A stretch of 64,000 nt of DNA from the NCBI RefSeq assembly GCF_000974445.1, contig NZ_BBOJ01000001.1:186001-250000 (forward strand), given 5' to 3'. The notes under the pieces were generated by a model. That model made no database searches. It saw only the letters and a program-made list of their open reading frames with translations, and was not told where the DNA came from. The position numbers and the translations under genes are program-made. How positions within the stretch are numbered: position 1 is the stretch's first letter; the number at the start of each line of letters is the position of its first letter. Shown one piece after another: positions 8,870 through 42,966 of this stretch. This stretch comes from Lentzea aerocolonigenes. Its GTDB lineage: Bacteria > Actinomycetota > Actinomycetes > Mycobacteriales > Pseudonocardiaceae.

Positions 8870-9757
8870 ATGAAGGTCTTCGTAACGGGCGCCAGCGGCC
8901 ACGTCGGCTCAGCCGTGGTCCCAGAACTGCTGCAGGCAGGCCACCAGGTGATCGGCCTGGCCCGCTCAGACACCTCGGCAGCCAAGCTGGAAGCGCAGGG
9001 CGCCACCGTCCAACGCGGCAACCTGGACGACCTCGACACCCTCCGCAAGGCCGCAGCAGAGGCAGACGCGGTGATCCACCTGGCGTTCAAGCACGAGGAA
9101 ATGTTCGCGGGCGACTACGCCGGCGCGTCCACCGCCGACCTGGCGGTGGTCCGCACGTTCATCGACGAGCTCTCCGGCACCGGCAAGGCGCTGATCGGCA
9201 CCGGCGGCACACTTTCCTACTCGGGCCTGGGCCACACCGCCACCGAGGACGAGCGCGTCCCCGACGACCACAGCCGAGGCACCGCCAGAAACCTGATCAT
9301 CGACGCCCCGGACCTGCGCGGAGCAGTCGTGGTCCTGCCACCGACCGTCCACAGTGAACTGGACACGGCAGGATTCATCCCACTGCTGGTCAAAACCGCC
9401 CGCACCACCGGCGTGTCCGGCTACCCAGGCGACGGCACGAACCGCTGGTCGGCAACGCACACCCTGGACGCGGCAAGGCTCTACCGGCTGGCCGTGGAAA
9501 AGGCCCCCGCAGGCTCGGTGCTGCACGCGGTAGCCGAGGAAGCCGTGACACTGCGGGAGATCGCCGAGATCATCGGGCAAAAGCTGAACGTGCCGGTCGA
9601 GAGCGTCCCAGCAGAACACTTCGGCCCGCTAGCAACCATGGTGGCGCGCGACGCACCCACGTCCGGCGCGCGAACGAAGGCGTTGCTGGGCTGGGAACCG
9701 AAGGGCCCGAGCCTGCGGGAGGACCTGGAGTCCGGTTTCTACTTCGAACAGGCCTGA
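8870..9757 (+). CDS. NAD(P)-binding short-chain reductase/epimerase family protein
   Basis: 295 residues of the extended/atypical SDR type. The N-terminal MKVFVTGASGHVGSAV is a Rossmann dinucleotide motif. The usual YxxxK catalytic pair is not clearly present: YSGLGHTATEDE lies where it would be expected. Sequence therefore supports cofactor binding better than a defined reaction. The ATG at 8870 follows AGGAGAG. It is regulated with the divergent TetR gene through operators at 8801-8855. The substrate is unknown. Confidence 0.85.
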   Translation: MKVFVTGASGHVGSAVVPELLQAGHQVIGLARSDTSAAKLEAQGATVQRGNLDDLDTLRKAAAEADAVIHLAFKHEEMFAGDYAGASTADLAVVRTFIDELSGTGKALIGTGGTLSYSGLGHTATEDERVPDDHSRGTARNLIIDAPDLRGAVVVLPPTVHSELDTAGFIPLLVKTARTTGVSGYPGDGTNRWSATHTLDAARLYRLAVEKAPAGSVLHAVAEEAVTLREIAEIIGQKLNVPVESVPAEHFGPLATMVARDAPTSGARTKALLGWEPKGPSLREDLESGFYFEQA

Positions 9758-37527: not shown

Positions 37528-39366
37528 CTACGTGGCCTCCCGACCGGCCTCGTCCATGCCGCCCATGAGCAGGGGCAGGCGGGTAGGTGCATCGGCAACA
37601 ACTCGAACCGGCACCCCCCAGTCCTGCCTGGTCAGACGGCAGACCGGGTGTTCGTCGGAAGGATCGTCACTGCAACTGGCGGCCTGCGCTACGACGTGCA
37701 AAACGCCGTTCGTGACCTGATCGTTGATCCGCAACGCCCGTACCAGATCGGTGCCGACCCCGGCACCCTCCAAGATCAGCTCCGGGGGCGAGCTGGTGAT
37801 CTCCAGACGCGTGGACGGTCCGTACCTTTCGTCCAGTTTCGTCCCTGTGGGCGGCGTGAACACGACAGCCAGCTCGAACGCGCCCGCGGCGATGTCCGTG
37901 CTCGGCCGCTTCACCTCGTGGGCCTCACCGTCGATCTTGGTGGCGGCGGCCGCGAACCGTTCGAGCCGGTGGGCCGCGCTCGCCACGACGACCAGTTCGC
38001 CGTCGACGAGCAGCGCGTCGGACGGCTCGGCGATGTCGGTGGCGATGGTGGACAGCGTCCTGGTCTCCGGGTCGTAGCGCCTGATCGCGTTGTTGTAGGT
38101 GTCAGAGATGACGACGGAGTGGTCCTTGAGCACGGTGACGCCCAGCGGGTGCTGCAAGAGCGCCTCGTCCGCGTCGCCGTCCTTGTGCCCGAACGCGAAC
38201 AACCCCTTGCCGATGACGGTGTGGACCTCACCGTTCTCGAGGTAGCGCAGCGCACTCGTCTCGGAGTCGACCATCCACAGCCTGTCGCCGTCCGCGGCCA
38301 GCCCCGACGTCTGCGCGAAGAAGGCCCCTTCGGCCGGACCGTCGTTGATGCCCTCGACGGTGGTGCCCGCGAGCCTGCTGACGGTGCCCGTCGCGGGGTC
38401 GAAGAAGCCGAGCGTGTGGTTGCCGGCCATGGCGATGGCCACGCCACCGTTCCACCAGGCGACGTCCCACGGGCTGGTGAGGTCGATCTTGTCGGCCGGC
38501 CCGTCCGTCTCACCGTCCCGCCACTGCTCGCCGGTGCCCGCGAGCGTCGTGACCTCGCCCGTGTCGAGGTCGATGCCGCGCAGGAGGTGGTTGACGGTGT
38601 CCGCGACGACGACGTCGTAACCGTGGGTCTTCGGGACCAGCGTGAGGCCCGCGGGCTCGGAGAAGGTGGGGTTCAGCCCGTCGGCCCGACCACGTTCGCC
38701 GGTGCCGATGCGACGGATGACCGTCTCGCCGTCAGCCTCCAGCTCCACGATGCCGTGGTGGGCGGAGTCGCTGACCAGGATCGTGTTGCTCGGCGTGACG
38801 ACGGCCTTCGCGGGGAACCTGAGCGTGGTGTTCGTGGGCTCGGGCGCGACGTACGGACCGGTGCCGCGGTGCAGCGTGCCCTTGGCGTCGTGCTCCTCGA
38901 CCAGCTCCCCGATGATCGTCCTGAGCGCCTCGACGTGCCCCTCACCAGCGGCGACGTGCACGACGTAGCCCTCGGGGTCGACCAGCACGAGCGTCGGCCA
39001 GGCCTTGACCGCGTAGTTCTGCCAGGTCGTGAGCTCCGGGTCGTCGAGGACGGGGTGGTGCACCTCGTAGCGCTCGACGGCGGCCTTGAGCGCGTCAGCG
39101 TCGGCCTCGTGGACGAACTTCGGCGAGTGCACGCCGATCGTGACCAGCACGTCCTCGAACTCGCGCTCGAGCGGCCGCAGCTCGTCGAGGACGTGCAGGC
39201 AGTTGATGCAGCAGAACGTCCAGAAGTCCAGCAGCACGATCTTGCCGCGGAGATCCTTGAGGGCGACGGTGGTGTCACCGGTGTTCAGCCAGCCGCGTCC
39301 TACCAGCTCAGGGGCTCGTACACGGGCACGCTTCGGTTTCGCGGTACTCACGGGCGTAGTCAACAT
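37528..39366 (-). CDS. Thioredoxin-like/NHL-repeat protein (NHLRC2-like)
   Basis: About 612 residues: an N-terminal thioredoxin-like domain (about 30-170, motif WTFCCINCLHVLDELRPLE, where CINC is the redox CxxC), then an NHL beta-propeller (about 190-480) and a C-terminal beta domain. The architecture is that of NHLRC2. No signal peptide is seen, so it is probably cytosolic. The start is ATG at 39366 or GTG at 39351 (VSTAKPKRARVRAPEL), neither with a strong ribosome site. Its 5' end (39209-39330) is repeated at 40973-41094, and part again at 42287-42319, implying insertions that replaced the original start. Confidence 0.88.
   Translation of the reverse strand: MLTTPVSTAKPKRARVRAPELVGRGWLNTGDTTVALKDLRGKIVLLDFWTFCCINCLHVLDELRPLEREFEDVLVTIGVHSPKFVHEADADALKAAVERYEVHHPVLDDPELTTWQNYAVKAWPTLVLVDPEGYVVHVAAGEGHVEALRTIIGELVEEHDAKGTLHRGTGPYVAPEPTNTTLRFPAKAVVTPSNTILVSDSAHHGIVELEADGETVIRRIGTGERGRADGLNPTFSEPAGLTLVPKTHGYDVVVADTVNHLLRGIDLDTGEVTTLAGTGEQWRDGETDGPADKIDLTSPWDVAWWNGGVAIAMAGNHTLGFFDPATGTVSRLAGTTVEGINDGPAEGAFFAQTSGLAADGDRLWMVDSETSALRYLENGEVHTVIGKGLFAFGHKDGDADEALLQHPLGVTVLKDHSVVISDTYNNAIRRYDPETRTLSTIATDIAEPSDALLVDGELVVVASAAHRLERFAAAATKIDGEAHEVKRPSTDIAAGAFELAVVFTPPTGTKLDERYGPSTRLEITSSPPELILEGAGVGTDLVRALRINDQVTNGVLHVVAQAASCSDDPSDEHPVCRLTRQDWGVPVRVVADAPTRLPLLMGGMDEAGREAT
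39209..39330. repeat. Direct repeat copy A (5' end of the thioredoxin/NHL gene)
   Basis: 122 bp identical to 40973-41094 at 120 positions (differences at 39316 and 39319), exactly 1764 bp apart. It encodes residues around ARVRAPELVGRGW up to the first Cys of the CCINC motif. Confidence 0.95.
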
Positions 39367-40554
39367 CCTGGGGCATGGCACCGATTCCGCATCCCACGAT
39401 GCGGACGCCGACCGTACAGCTCTAGCTGGTGGCAATAAAGGAGGAAGCCAAGCCGCTCCCTACCCATCTTGTCGGACAGCAGAGTAAGTGTTGACAGACA
39501 ACCTACAACTAGGTGACCCTTGACACGACGAGACGCCTGGGACCGCCCACACCCAGGAGCACGTGCTCGCCGAGTCGGGAGGGAACGAGATGTCCGCAGG
39601 GAGTGCACTCTGACAGGGTGGTACCGAATTCGCAGTGGCGTAGTCGGCTTTTCGTGAACTCGTGGTCGAAGGAACAGCGGCCACTGGAACAGACATTCGC
39701 CGCCTCGCACGCCTACACGGCCATCGCCCACTTCTTCCGCGTGTACGAATCGTAGGAACTCAGGCCCGGTTTCGTTGCTGCCCAAGGCGCACGACCGAGC
39801 CGCTGAAATCGGTCGTTGGCTCGTCGCCCACCGAAGGGGCAATCTCCGCCCAGTTCTGACGTGACTGACCCGTTGCACGTGCTGTGGTGTGACAACAGGC
39901 CAAGAGGATGGCCGAGTCCAATCTGGTCACCGCGAGGGATCGGTCTGGGACCTGGCAGTTGTTCACCTCAAGCTCGACTGAGGTACACCCGCGCCACCAG
40001 GACGAATCGTCGCTGCGCCGGCCGACTGTCCGCTCGACATCTTCTGACTCGACGCGGACTCAAGCTAGCCCAACCACGCTCAGCGTATTTCGTATCCAGG
40101 CAGGTCTTGACCACTACACATGCCTACTTGGCAATATAGCTTAGTTGGCATATGGGCCCCTACGGGTGAATCGCTTGAGCATCGTTGCAAGGCGCTGACG
40201 TCAGGTGTCCGTTCAACGAAGTAGGACAACCTAGAGCGCCAGCTGCTGTTCTCCCAGGTCACAGCCGCATTGCCGATGCTGACCGGTTAACGCACCGTTC
40301 TGGGGAGGTACGGCGTCTCTGACCGCACCCGCACGGCAAGCGGTTCTGACCTGCAAAGACGCTTCGGCTCGCCCATTCACCGGCCCCACGCGAACTTTCG
40401 CCGGTGGAGTGTCTACAGTTCCCGCACCCCAACCACCCGCACCCGAAGAGGGTGCTTGTTCGCGCACCCCTTTAGTTTCTTCGGCCGCCGCGAGCACGCA
40501 TGTAAGTCGACGACCTAGAGCCCTGGACACAAGCCCGCCCCGAGGAAGGCCACG
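39367..40554. other. Gene-poor, AT-richer insert between repeat copies A and B
   Basis: Lower GC than its neighbours and no open frame with convincing codon bias on either strand. A possible promoter (TTGACC near 40108 with AT-rich TATAGC downstream near 40135) lies inside. I see no transposase, integrase or phage gene. It looks like decayed foreign DNA; the one supported gene is at 40555. Confidence 0.5.
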
Positions 40555-40782
40555 ATGCAGACGCCAACAGTGCAACCCCCAGACCCCATCTGGGACTTCC
40601 TAACGCAAGCGCTCCCCTACGTCTTCGGGTTCGCTGTCGTCCTAGTCGTCCTCAAGTACAACCGGGGCAGGATCGAGCTGACGTTCCTCAAGATCTTCAA
40701 ACTCCTGCACCTCGGGACTAAGACCGACCAGCCCGAAACGAAGGAACTTCCGAAGGAGCCGGGTGACGGCGGCTCACACTGA
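40555..40782 (+). CDS. Small single-span membrane protein
   Basis: 75 residues: a polar Pro-rich N-terminus, one membrane helix (about 17-35: ALPYVFGFAVVLVVLKYNRG) and an acidic/lysine tail ending KEPGDGGSH. AGGAAGG lies 5 nt before the ATG at 40555, which supports translation. No family recognised. It is the only plausible gene inside the insert between repeat copies A and B, so it may be cargo of the inserted DNA. Confidence 0.6.
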   Translation: MQTPTVQPPDPIWDFLTQALPYVFGFAVVLVVLKYNRGRIELTFLKIFKLLHLGTKTDQPETKELPKEPGDGGSH

Positions 40783-40972
40783 TGCGCCTCGTACTCGACA
40801 TGGCCTCGCCCAACTCGGGACACCGAGCACCGCTCTCAGAGCCACGCGCATACCGAACGCCAGCGGTGATCGAGTGAACTGGGTGGTACATGTCCGCACC
40901 ACACGCCCTCATCGACAACCCCACAGATTCCGATCGTAGGCACAACGCCAGCTGACCGGAGTGAACGTCTGT

Positions 40973-41094
40973 CAGCAGAACGTCCAGAAGTCCAGCAGCA
41001 CGATCTTGCCGCGGAGATCCTTGAGGGCGACGGTGGTGTCACCGGTGTTCAGCCAGCCGCGTCCTACCAGCTCAGGGGCACGGACACGGGCACG
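40973..41094. repeat. Direct repeat copy B (truncated 5' end of the thioredoxin/NHL gene)
   Basis: 122-bp copy of 39209-39330. On the - strand it reads RRARVRAPELVGRGW through LDFWTFC and then meets a stop just past the repeat edge, so it is a gene fragment. Right of 41094 it continues into sequence shared with copy C (41086-41118). The rest of 40783-41204 has no supported gene. Confidence 0.95.
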
Positions 41095-41204
41095 GCGCTT
41101 CACAGTCGTCACGGCCGTATCCAACACCGTGGAACGAGTGCGTGTTCCTGCGTCCAGTACTTGAGACTTTCGTTTTGTTCGTTTTGCTGGGCTAGGATGG
41201 ACGC

Positions 41205-41687
41205 ATGACGGCTGCCAGTGAACGAACGGTGCTGCCACCCGCCAGACCTGAGAGCTTGGCCGGCTGGGTAGCAGCGCTGAGTTCCCTGCGCGGAGAGACC
41301 GCTGCCCTGGTCGCACCGAACGGCGCCCACCTCGACCTTCCACCGGAGGTCTTCGAGGTGCTGCGGCAAGTGGTCTTCGCGATGTCGCAAGGGCTGGCGA
41401 TCACAGTCGCGCCACAACACACAGTTCTGACCACAAGCGAGGCCGCTCACCTGCTCGGTGTCTCGCGGCCCACCCTCGTGCGACTGCTCGAAGCGGGCGA
41501 AATCCCTTACGAGCAGCCGAACCGCCACCCCCGCGTCATGCTCGCAGACTTGCTCGCATACCAGGATCGAGTGCAACGGGCACGCGCCGCAGGACTGGAC
41601 GAGATGGTTCGCGACGGTGAAGACAGCGGTCTGTACGACCTTCCGCTGGACACTCCGTTCGAACGGCTACCGACCGACGACAGGTGA
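41205..41687 (+). CDS. Excisionase-type HTH antitoxin of a PIN toxin pair
   Basis: 160 residues. The central helix-turn-helix TTSEAAHLLGVSRPTLVRLLEAGEIPYEQP (about 68-98) is of the MerR/excisionase type; the C-terminal acidic stretch (MVRDGEDSGLYDLPLDTPFERLP) would bind the toxin. ATG at 41205 with GGATGG upstream. The PIN gene begins 3 nt after its stop, the usual order for antitoxin-toxin modules, where the antitoxin represses the operon. The pair sits between repeat copies B and C. Confidence 0.85.
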   Translation: MTAASERTVLPPARPESLAGWVAALSSLRGETAALVAPNGAHLDLPPEVFEVLRQVVFAMSQGLAITVAPQHTVLTTSEAAHLLGVSRPTLVRLLEAGEIPYEQPNRHPRVMLADLLAYQDRVQRARAAGLDEMVRDGEDSGLYDLPLDTPFERLPTDDR

Positions 41688-41690
41688 TCT

Positions 41691-42263
41691 TTGTTTCCCG
41701 TCTTCTTCGACACCTGTGTCCTGCTCAAGCCGTATTTGTGCGACACGATCCTCACAGTCGCCGAGTCCCGCATCTACCGGCCGCTGTGGTCCGTCGACGT
41801 GCTGGCCGAGCTTGATCGGAACTTGCGCAAGCGCGGTGCGTCCGATGCCCAGATCTCACATCGCCTGGAGCAGATGACCCGCCATTTCCCGGACGCTGAG
41901 GTCAAGGACTACGAGCAGCTCGTCGGATCGATGACGAACGACCCGAAGGACCGGCACGTGCTGGCCGCTGCGGTCCGAGGAGGAGCCGAGGTGCTGGTCA
42001 CGGAGAACTTGAAGGACTTCCCGAACTCGTCCGCCGACCCCTACGGCATCACGATCCTCCATCCGGACGAGTTCCTGCAGGACCAACTCGACCTCGCACC
42101 TGAGGTGGTTCATGACGCCATCCGGCGCCAGGTGTCCCGGTACCGACGAGCTCCGCGGTCGGTGGACGACCTGCTGGACATCCTCGGCAACGAAGGCCAC
42201 GGGTGCCTCGGTTTCGCGGATGCGTGTCGCGGTGATCGCAGGTTCGACACCTGGAGAAGCTGA
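41691..42263 (+). CDS. PIN-domain toxin (VapC-like RNase)
   Basis: 190 residues. PIN fold acidic residues: Asp in PVFFDTCVLL (residue 7), Glu in DVLAELDRNL, Asp in DPKDRHVLAAAV, and a later acidic site near LVTENLKDFP. The family cleaves RNA with Mg2+. TTG start at 41691 with AGGTGA just upstream and a 3-nt gap from the antitoxin gene. The C-terminal 60 residues (from LHPDEFL) are longer than in short VapC proteins but usual for the excisionase-paired subgroup. It ends 23 nt before repeat copy C. Confidence 0.85.
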   Translation: MFPVFFDTCVLLKPYLCDTILTVAESRIYRPLWSVDVLAELDRNLRKRGASDAQISHRLEQMTRHFPDAEVKDYEQLVGSMTNDPKDRHVLAAAVRGGAEVLVTENLKDFPNSSADPYGITILHPDEFLQDQLDLAPEVVHDAIRRQVSRYRRAPRSVDDLLDILGNEGHGCLGFADACRGDRRFDTWRS

Positions 42264-42286
42264 GCCGTGGCAGCGGGCGTCCAGAA

Positions 42287-42319
42287 ACGGGCACGGCGAT
42301 TCACACTCGTCCTGGCCGT
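42287..42319. repeat. Direct repeat copy C (probable ancestral start of the thioredoxin/NHL gene)
   Basis: 33 bp matching 41086-41118 at 29 positions, including the core ACGGGCACGGCG. On the - strand it contains AGGA, a GTG start and codons for NRRAR, directly downstream of the lipoprotein stop, as expected for the original gene start in an operon. Confidence 0.75.
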
Positions 42320-42322
42320 GGC

Positions 42323-42850
42323 TCAGGTACTCGTGTCCCACCGGAAGATCACGTGCGGCGCCACGTCCCCCCAGTGCACGACCACGCGGGTCTGCCCGCC
42401 CTTCGTGTGCCGCATCGTCAGCGTGAGCGGCGCCCACGTGCCGCCCGGCTCCGCGGTGCCGGACGTCGTGCAGGCGATGTCGCGCCCGCCCTCGCACGTC
42501 CACCCGTCGCCGCCGACGGTCAGGTCACCCTCGCCGTCCATGTCCTCGACGACGAACCTGATCCTGGCGCCCGTCTGCGGTGTGCTGGCGGTGTTGCGCG
42601 GCTTCAGCGTGAAGTCGACGGGCTGCGACCGGTAGACGAACCCCATCTCCTCCGGGGAGTTCTGCCAGGCGCGGATTTCCTTGCCGTCCGTCTCGATGTC
42701 GAACGGCTCCTGCCTGGGCGGCGTCGGCGGCATGGTGGTGGGCTCGCTCGTCGGCTCGGTGGGGGTGGGCTCGGGGGTGGAGGTCGGCTCGGCCTGGGAG
42801 GAGCAGGCGGCCAGCAGCAGAACCAGTGCCGGTACCGCGAAGAACCTCAT
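42323..42850 (-). CDS. Putative lipoprotein with Pro/Thr-rich spacer
   Basis: 175 residues from the ATG at 42850. Signal peptide with lipobox LLAAC (about 14-18), a low-complexity PTPTEPTSEPTT spacer (about 20-50), then a beta-rich globular domain with a probable disulfide (WTCEGGRDIACTT). The C-terminal Ig-like pattern resembles actinobacterial DUF4352/telomeric-repeat-like secreted domains, but no family is certain. It is probably membrane-anchored outside the cell. It was likely upstream of the thioredoxin/NHL gene before the insertions. Confidence 0.8.
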   Translation of the reverse strand: MRFFAVPALVLLLAACSSQAEPTSTPEPTPTEPTSEPTTMPPTPPRQEPFDIETDGKEIRAWQNSPEEMGFVYRSQPVDFTLKPRNTASTPQTGARIRFVVEDMDGEGDLTVGGDGWTCEGGRDIACTTSGTAEPGGTWAPLTLTMRHTKGGQTRVVVHWGDVAPHVIFRWDTST

Positions 42851-42966
42851 CACCCCAGCGTAATGGCGCTGGCCCGAACTCGCCGGTAGCCGTCATCATG
42901 GACGCAGACCGCCCGTCTGAACCTTTTCGCCGTGTTCGGCGTAGAGGAGGCCGGGAGGGGTGCGTG

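Follow-up and report, generated by a model that had tools for sequence, protein, structure and literature searches.

CxxC codons of a thioredoxin/NHL gene as a probable integration hotspot of elements with serine integrases in Lentzea aerocolonigenes and its relatives

Results

Organization of the locus

The window analyzed here is a 64,000-nucleotide stretch of the Lentzea aerocolonigenes genome (assembly GCF_000974445.1, contig NZ_BBOJ01000001.1, positions 186,001 to 250,000), in which a gene for a thioredoxin-like protein with NHL repeats, the thioredoxin/NHL gene, is preceded by further copies of its own 5' end and by a toxin-antitoxin (TA) gene pair (Table 1). We consider it highly probable that this gene is an integration hotspot for elements carrying serine integrases, and that two units are stacked at it in the window. 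The three copies of the gene start noticed in a preliminary description of the sequence were reproduced by alignment: copies A (39209-39330) and B (40973-41094) are equal at 120 of 122 nucleotides (98%) with a spacing of 1764, and copy C (42284-42319) is 86% identical to 41083-41118 over 36 nucleotides. All three are minus-strand starts of the thioredoxin/NHL gene and, as had been described, a common sequence, ACGGGCACG, is present in each; a search of the entire genome with the 122-bp block returned two matches, A and B, and no third long copy. The start of the working gene, placed from relatives, is most likely GTG 39351. The frame of copy B opens with GTG 41112 and is closed by a stop (40974-40972) at the codons of the CxxC motif.

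Copy C had been described as a 33-bp match with a GTG of its own. The match is real, but it is longer, comprising the 36 nucleotides and, beyond them, an eroded CxxC core and junction arm (42286-42252), which matches the same junction in 5/5 relatives tested (shuffles reached the score in 0/1000 cases for four of them and in 1/1000 for genome G119). A GTG does lie at 42304 and some of the start codons are kept, but the promoter motif and most codons are gone, so that copy C does not look like a working start. The module between copies B and C, previously termed vapBC-like, indeed places a toxin gene with a PIN_3 domain beside an antitoxin gene, the antitoxin being of the HTH_17 type; we predict a PIN-type TA module in which the PIN toxin adjoins a DNA-binding antitoxin.

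Table 1. Features at the thioredoxin/NHL locus, in positions of the window
Feature	Position	Strand	Remarks
Thioredoxin-like/NHL-repeat gene, intact, the target; 607 residues from GTG 39351	37528..39351	-	Pfam NHL, Thioredoxin_8, AhpC-TSA
CxxC-codon core in the working gene; putative regenerated attachment site (attR/attB-like)	39202..39216	-	Detached fragments end here
Copy A, the 5' end that the gene uses at present; GGAAT-N19-GTT at 39388	39217..39388	-	
Cargo of the putative second insertion	39420..40944	.	Partial matches to a chromosomal stretch of relatives
Small cargo open reading frame, 75 residues	40555..40782	+	Hydrophobic stretch, by eye
Element side of the putative second junction, behind copy B	40945..40972	-	Identity to the genome's own gene ends here
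Copy B, detached start, apparently native; GGAAC-N18-GTT at 41148, GTG 41112	40973..41148	-	
Predicted antitoxin gene, HTH_17 / excisionase-type HTH; cargo of the putative first insertion	41205..41687	+	Domain match
Predicted toxin gene, PIN_3 domain	41691..42263	+	Domain match
Eroded junction of the putative first insertion: CxxC core and class I arm	42252..42286	-	Overlaps the last toxin codons
Copy C, apparently what is left of the original start, next after the lipoprotein gene	42287..42319	-	
Lipoprotein gene, neighbor of the original gene start	42323..42853	-	Lipobox by eye; without Pfam family

A single breakpoint at the CxxC codons

A profile of the gene start (A1) gave a match in at least 335 of 390 genomes of the family. 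A second search covered the genomes with at least two start matches, and decayed remnants in the others may have escaped it. Detached 5' ends upstream of an intact gene were found in several genera of the Pseudonocardiaceae; 14 such fragments, from 13 genomes in 8 genera (copy B of G000, and G008, G028, G032, G034, G066, G067, G107, G128, G135, G136, G377 with two, and G382), have matching ends that fall within -4 to +9 bp of one point. In 14/14 usable fragments this point lies at the codons for FWTFCC, at the CxxC motif, and not at the gene start itself, where the preliminary description had placed the insertions. The breakpoints of G135 and G382 were read by eye, and fragments at contig ends in G070 and on contig C11 of G382 were excluded, the latter being the gene's own start within a contig overlap.

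Beyond the breakpoint, the element sides (arms) were sorted by eye into class I (G005, G008, G066, G067, G119, G122, G128 and G136) and class II (G028, G034, G107, both of G377, and G382); those of G000, G032 and G135 were left unclassed. Class I arms are 77-81% identical over +10 to +30 and 37-45% beyond, and class II arms 77% over +10 to +20 and 25-39% beyond. The exact class I pattern occurred in 4/386 genomes, always at the thioredoxin/NHL gene. When as many as two mismatches were allowed, the list grew to 42 places, of which six are at this gene (G005, G066, G119, G122, G128 and G136); the other places were not inspected individually, and a reversed control pattern gave 37 matches, so the inexact matches are mostly chance. 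The arm at the integrase gene of G067, which no toxin gene follows, shares 14/21 bases with the class I arm, a score that 5/100000 shuffles reach. The pattern scans also returned one viral-contig match per arm (L128, L129); no gene fragment adjoins them, and they were judged to be chance.

By eye only, and not used as evidence, an ATCAAC motif appears shifted by about 5 bp among the class II arms; a shift of about this kind between attP and attB is known for serine integrases. Stacked insertions occur in the window, in G377 and in G028, and in G067 a TA unit lies outside the prophage described below. In G028 (locus L057, in gene orientation) two class II junctions lie near 9067 and 10596, the gene start at the outer one being more eroded, and in G377 (L122, 9879-12493) two detached starts follow one another, accompanied by genes for an APH-type phosphotransferase and a membrane protein and then by a pyrophosphatase-like gene, ahead of the intact gene.

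Prophages with serine integrases occupy the same site

In G067 the intact gene (1215815-1217641) and its old 5' fragment (1256199-1256405) are 38.6 kb apart, or 38.7 kb when measured core to core, with a serine integrase gene at 1254562-1256127; between these ends lie terminase, head, tail (tape measure), lysin, primase and polymerase genes; the element is apparently a complete prophage inside the thioredoxin/NHL gene. A viral contig whose source is G067 holds, in a row, the antitoxin, the promoter, the detached start and the 522-residue serine integrase. In G382 the detached start and the beginning of an integrase gene close contig C6, which overlaps contig C25 by 287 identical bases; C25 and a 40-kb viral contig each hold the whole 517-residue serine integrase. 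Contig C11, with terminase, portal and head genes, overlaps contig C16, which has the intact gene, by 307 identical bases, and we infer that C25 and C11 are parts of one prophage split over contigs. In both genomes the integrase gene begins right behind the detached start.

The two integrases are only 26% identical in alignment. Both are serine recombinases, scoring 28 and 47 bits against the CcrB model (cut-off 900); integrase P0001 matched structure 9iu2 (E 2e-42), and the class II integrase matched phiC31-type structure entries (E about 1e-12). A search of the family for integrases like that of G067, most of them sharing 28-41% identity with it, listed 30 loci; among these, a convincing start fragment lay within the fetched flank only at G067's own. 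No integrase gene was found in the two insertions of the window, in agreement with the preliminary description. That description had also proposed a search of phages and plasmids; with a 50-residue start peptide as query, this gave no phage match and no plasmid match over more than 80% of the query. The peptide matched 194 plasmid records; of the 20 that were listed, those with an annotation are thioredoxin, DipZ or CcdA proteins.

Native and non-native gene starts

The detached and attached gene ends were compared with those of relatives. Next to the crossover in G067, the final 60 bp of the detached end are 83-100% identical to 7 congeners and those of the attached end 63-67%, even though the gene into which the attached end leads is native (78-87%). 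In the window, the first codons of copy B average 92% identity to 23 relatives and those of copy A 68%. The attached 5' end would thus be element-derived and the detached one native, as judged from the 60 bp by the crossover in G067 and, in the window, from the first codons only.

A GGAAC/T-N17-19-GTT motif was present in 36/41 promoters, versus 0.6% of shuffles, a count that leaves out two further loci without a recognizable core. The motif is found at both A and B. It has the form of SigR-type thiol-stress promoters, and from the motif alone the thioredoxin/NHL gene may be under SigR control. In several genomes of the genus (for example at L039, L053 and L054) a near-palindrome, GTCCA-N5-TGGAC, lies just upstream of the motif, a candidate for either a regulator-binding site or a feature of recombination.

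A number of observations weigh against integration by a serine integrase as the source of these structures. In G067, the contrast between ends is weak over the preceding 90 bp (62-86% versus 66-81%, 6 congeners) and absent in the promoter (48-69% versus 45-69%), and the promoters of the window are undecisive (B 62%, A 56%); the attached promoters of G067, G122 and G128 are without the GGAAY/GTT motif. Copies A and B are 98% alike over about 107 bp by the core, though the first codons of A are foreign, and the old and new ends of G034, G128 and G107 are 91-97% alike over 69 bp, which calls for conversion at a later time, for donors from within the species or for another explanation. Among the arms, that of G135 fits neither class, that behind copy B is assignable to neither, and in all class I units except the G067 prophage the arm extends over the final codons of the toxin gene; because these codons are shared, its conservation is partly protein conservation. 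Finally, with three candidates scored per genome and at the thresholds applied, neither integrase had a relative in the window's genome.

The near-identity of A with B, and of old with new ends in G034, G107 and G128, is what would be expected had the gene start been duplicated in tandem by RecA or by slippage, with ordinary insertions and decay coming afterwards and no site-specific recombinase involved. We regard this as very improbable, since it is opposed by the one breakpoint in 8 genera, the similar element arms, the non-native attached ends and the prophage integrases at that very point.

Spread of the toxin-antitoxin unit

Measured from core to core, the TA unit is 1297-1318 bp long in seven genomes belonging to three genera (G005, G008, G066, G119, G122, G128 and G136) and 1301 bp in the window, where copy C carries the junction. 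An alignment of the antitoxin, searched against 84,980 species genomes, found 36 loci, 13 of them at the thioredoxin/NHL gene, with a PIN match beside the antitoxin relative in 27/36. Matches of at least 73% over about 155 residues were at this gene in 13/14 cases, the exception being Crossiella; a short Actinophytocola contig has a partial 76% match without the thioredoxin/NHL gene, and the remaining 21 loci are at most 65% identical, with no thioredoxin/NHL gene within the fetched 5 kb. In Crossiella sp. S99.2 (L187, 4983-6019), the same TA pair is present and its antitoxin gene is preceded by the same sequence, AAAACGAACAAAACGAAA, but the locus lacks the thioredoxin/NHL gene.

The TA pair has moved between genera. 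In a tree of 13 pairs (those of L183, L184, L187 and L198 were unused) a single Lentzea clade was rejected (p-AU 7e-13), while the tree of the thioredoxin/NHL gene holds Lentzea together at 100/100; the pair of G013 falls among the Saccharothrix rows and has the same minimal layout beside the gene. The pair of the window groups with five other Lentzea pairs (82/85), and for this reason may have been inherited within the genus. At Saccharothrix coeruleofusca (L184, 4818-4898), TA pair, truncated gene start, small gene and intact gene follow one another, probably a double insertion.

Locus structure varies within the genus. Between the FMO and thioredoxin/NHL genes lie about 0.1 to 3.5 kb, depending on the genome, among the 24 compared, with no FMO match in G023 in this comparison. 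The TA pair stands before the thioredoxin/NHL gene in 7/24, including the window, where it is one insertion further out, and a remnant is found in an eighth genome, G007. The arrangement is therefore not common to all relatives; its presence in all close relatives is what the preliminary description had named as a refutation of its reading. The absence of any uninterrupted junction would have been another, but such a junction exists in G012 (L044), where the lipoprotein gene lies directly before the gene start.

Such spread could also have arisen had the unit been inserted once, long ago, with alleles swapped later between genera by homologous recombination across the gene start. The single structure in the rows studied and the grouping of six of the seven Lentzea TA rows (82/85) agree with this, but homology around the units would be one-sided, no FMO or lipoprotein match being present in the fetched 5 kb around the Saccharothrix, Actinokineospora and Solihabitans units, and a site without the unit exists in G012; we judge it unlikely. 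Alternatively, the TA units and small cargos may be what is left of large prophages whose middle, integrase included, was deleted. This we hold to be possible though doubtful: prophages do share the site and the second cargo of the window is decayed, but the seven class I units keep to 1297-1318 bp in 3 genera, with the arm running into the toxin stop codon, and this minimal layout is also that of the G013 pair, a pair of the Saccharothrix group.

Other cargo

In the second cargo of the window, 39490-39613, 39650-39831 and approximately 39976-40072 match a stretch that lies, in relatives, between a GntR-like gene (by eye) and a gene for a HExxH-type peptide hydroxylase; this appears to be a decayed second copy of the region upstream of the GntR-like gene and of the hydroxylase gene, lacking about 1 kb internally, and the matched stretches are closer to the copies of G005 and G018 than to the genome's own. 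The 1.6-kb stretch between A and B, described earlier as a second insert, thus includes a decayed copy of a chromosomal region. Family searches with the protein of the small open reading frame gave none, an Rfam scan of 39200-42400 gave no match up to E = 1, and PADLOC gave two weak matches only, both to the antitoxin (E 0.001 and 0.004). Elsewhere, the cargo of G028 and G107 comprises a PIN toxin with its CcdA-type antitoxin, and YunG (the scans covered the TA pair of G107 and YunG of G028), that of G034 a HIT protein, and that of G377 an APH-type phosphotransferase and a weak pyrophosphatase match.

Discussion

The shared breakpoint, the prophages at the site, the native and foreign ends and the spread of the TA unit lead us to read the window as two stacked insertions without an integrase of their own; the earlier proposal of two insertions, one bearing the TA pair, is supported by the breakpoint, the prophages and the presence of the unit in other genera. 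We reason that the attachment site would be the conserved DNA for the CxxC motif, and that an incoming circle would bring its own promoter and first ~50 codons next to the crossover. Recombination would then detach the start of the host gene, leaving it as a dead fragment beside the element, and join the element's start to the rest, so that the gene stays whole and a usable site is re-formed proximally, at which further elements could stack. In the window, the 1.30-kb PIN/HTH_17 TA unit would have entered first (C to B) and the second unit later (B to A), the re-formed site presumably being used again. Both units may have been moved by an integrase of the prophage kind, acting in cis and then lost, or in trans. 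Elements would be tolerated since a working promoter and start are returned, and cells that lose a unit would pay for it where a TA pair adjoins the new start, so that the pair may help to keep the unit.

A wider proposal is put forward tentatively, as a serious prospect that falls short of an even chance: that these are cassettes anchored to a host gene, namely 0.4-2.4 kb units that lack an integrase and combine a promoter and the first host-gene codons with either a TA pair or one or two other genes, moved in trans by phage serine integrases and stacked at the CxxC codons of one stress-type gene in at least 8 genera, and that two barely related integrases converged on the same codons.

In classical systems attP and attB share a short core only. 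Relative to phage serine integrases (9iu2, phiC31), the likeness is in domain make-up and sequence, and the phage side here carries about 200 bp of the gene start. In the staphylococcal cassette chromosome (SCC), large serine recombinases (Ccr) act at the 3' end of rlmH, with a regenerated site, tandem stacking and members without recombinase. Our site resembles SCC in the large serine recombinases, the use of one chromosomal gene, a site that would be regenerated, tandem stacking and members without recombinase; it differs in that a 5' part is replaced, in that the target is not rlmH, and in that the integrases are not CcrA/CcrB recombinases, scoring below the CcrB cut-off. Cis-mobilizable elements and the TA cassettes of superintegrons are likewise small, bounded by recombination sites and without recombinase, with TA genes favoring retention. 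Here, in contrast, the unit ends in a promoter and a host-gene start, and no attC sites or integron integrase were seen, although no search was aimed at them.

The nearest parallel is with dusA-specific islands and prophages, which enter a housekeeping gene of Proteobacteria near its 5' end, at a single conserved position, and substitute island sequence for that end; they do so by tyrosine integrases, the integrase being the only universal feature (Farrugia et al. 2015, PMC4482086). The 5'-end replacement and the sharing of a site by prophages and islands are the same; here the integrases are serine recombinases and not the tyrosine integrase of the dusA family, the hosts are actinobacteria, the gene is another, and many units are without integrase. 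The mechanism is therefore of a known kind. What seems new, as far as searches show, is the site itself, the class of enzyme acting there, the sharing of one target by two unlike integrases, and the minimal units that lack an integrase; the site was absent from the literature searched, which covered few subscription journals or preprints and does not show that no report exists.

The two integrases are candidates for genetic tools. The findings indicate that serine integrases can target active-site codons while the element carries a replacement gene start, and, if the small units do move on their own, a minimal mobile cassette would consist of a TA pair and a gene start. Together they identify, in one family of actinomycetes from soil, a probable integration hotspot along with its attachment site and two integrases.

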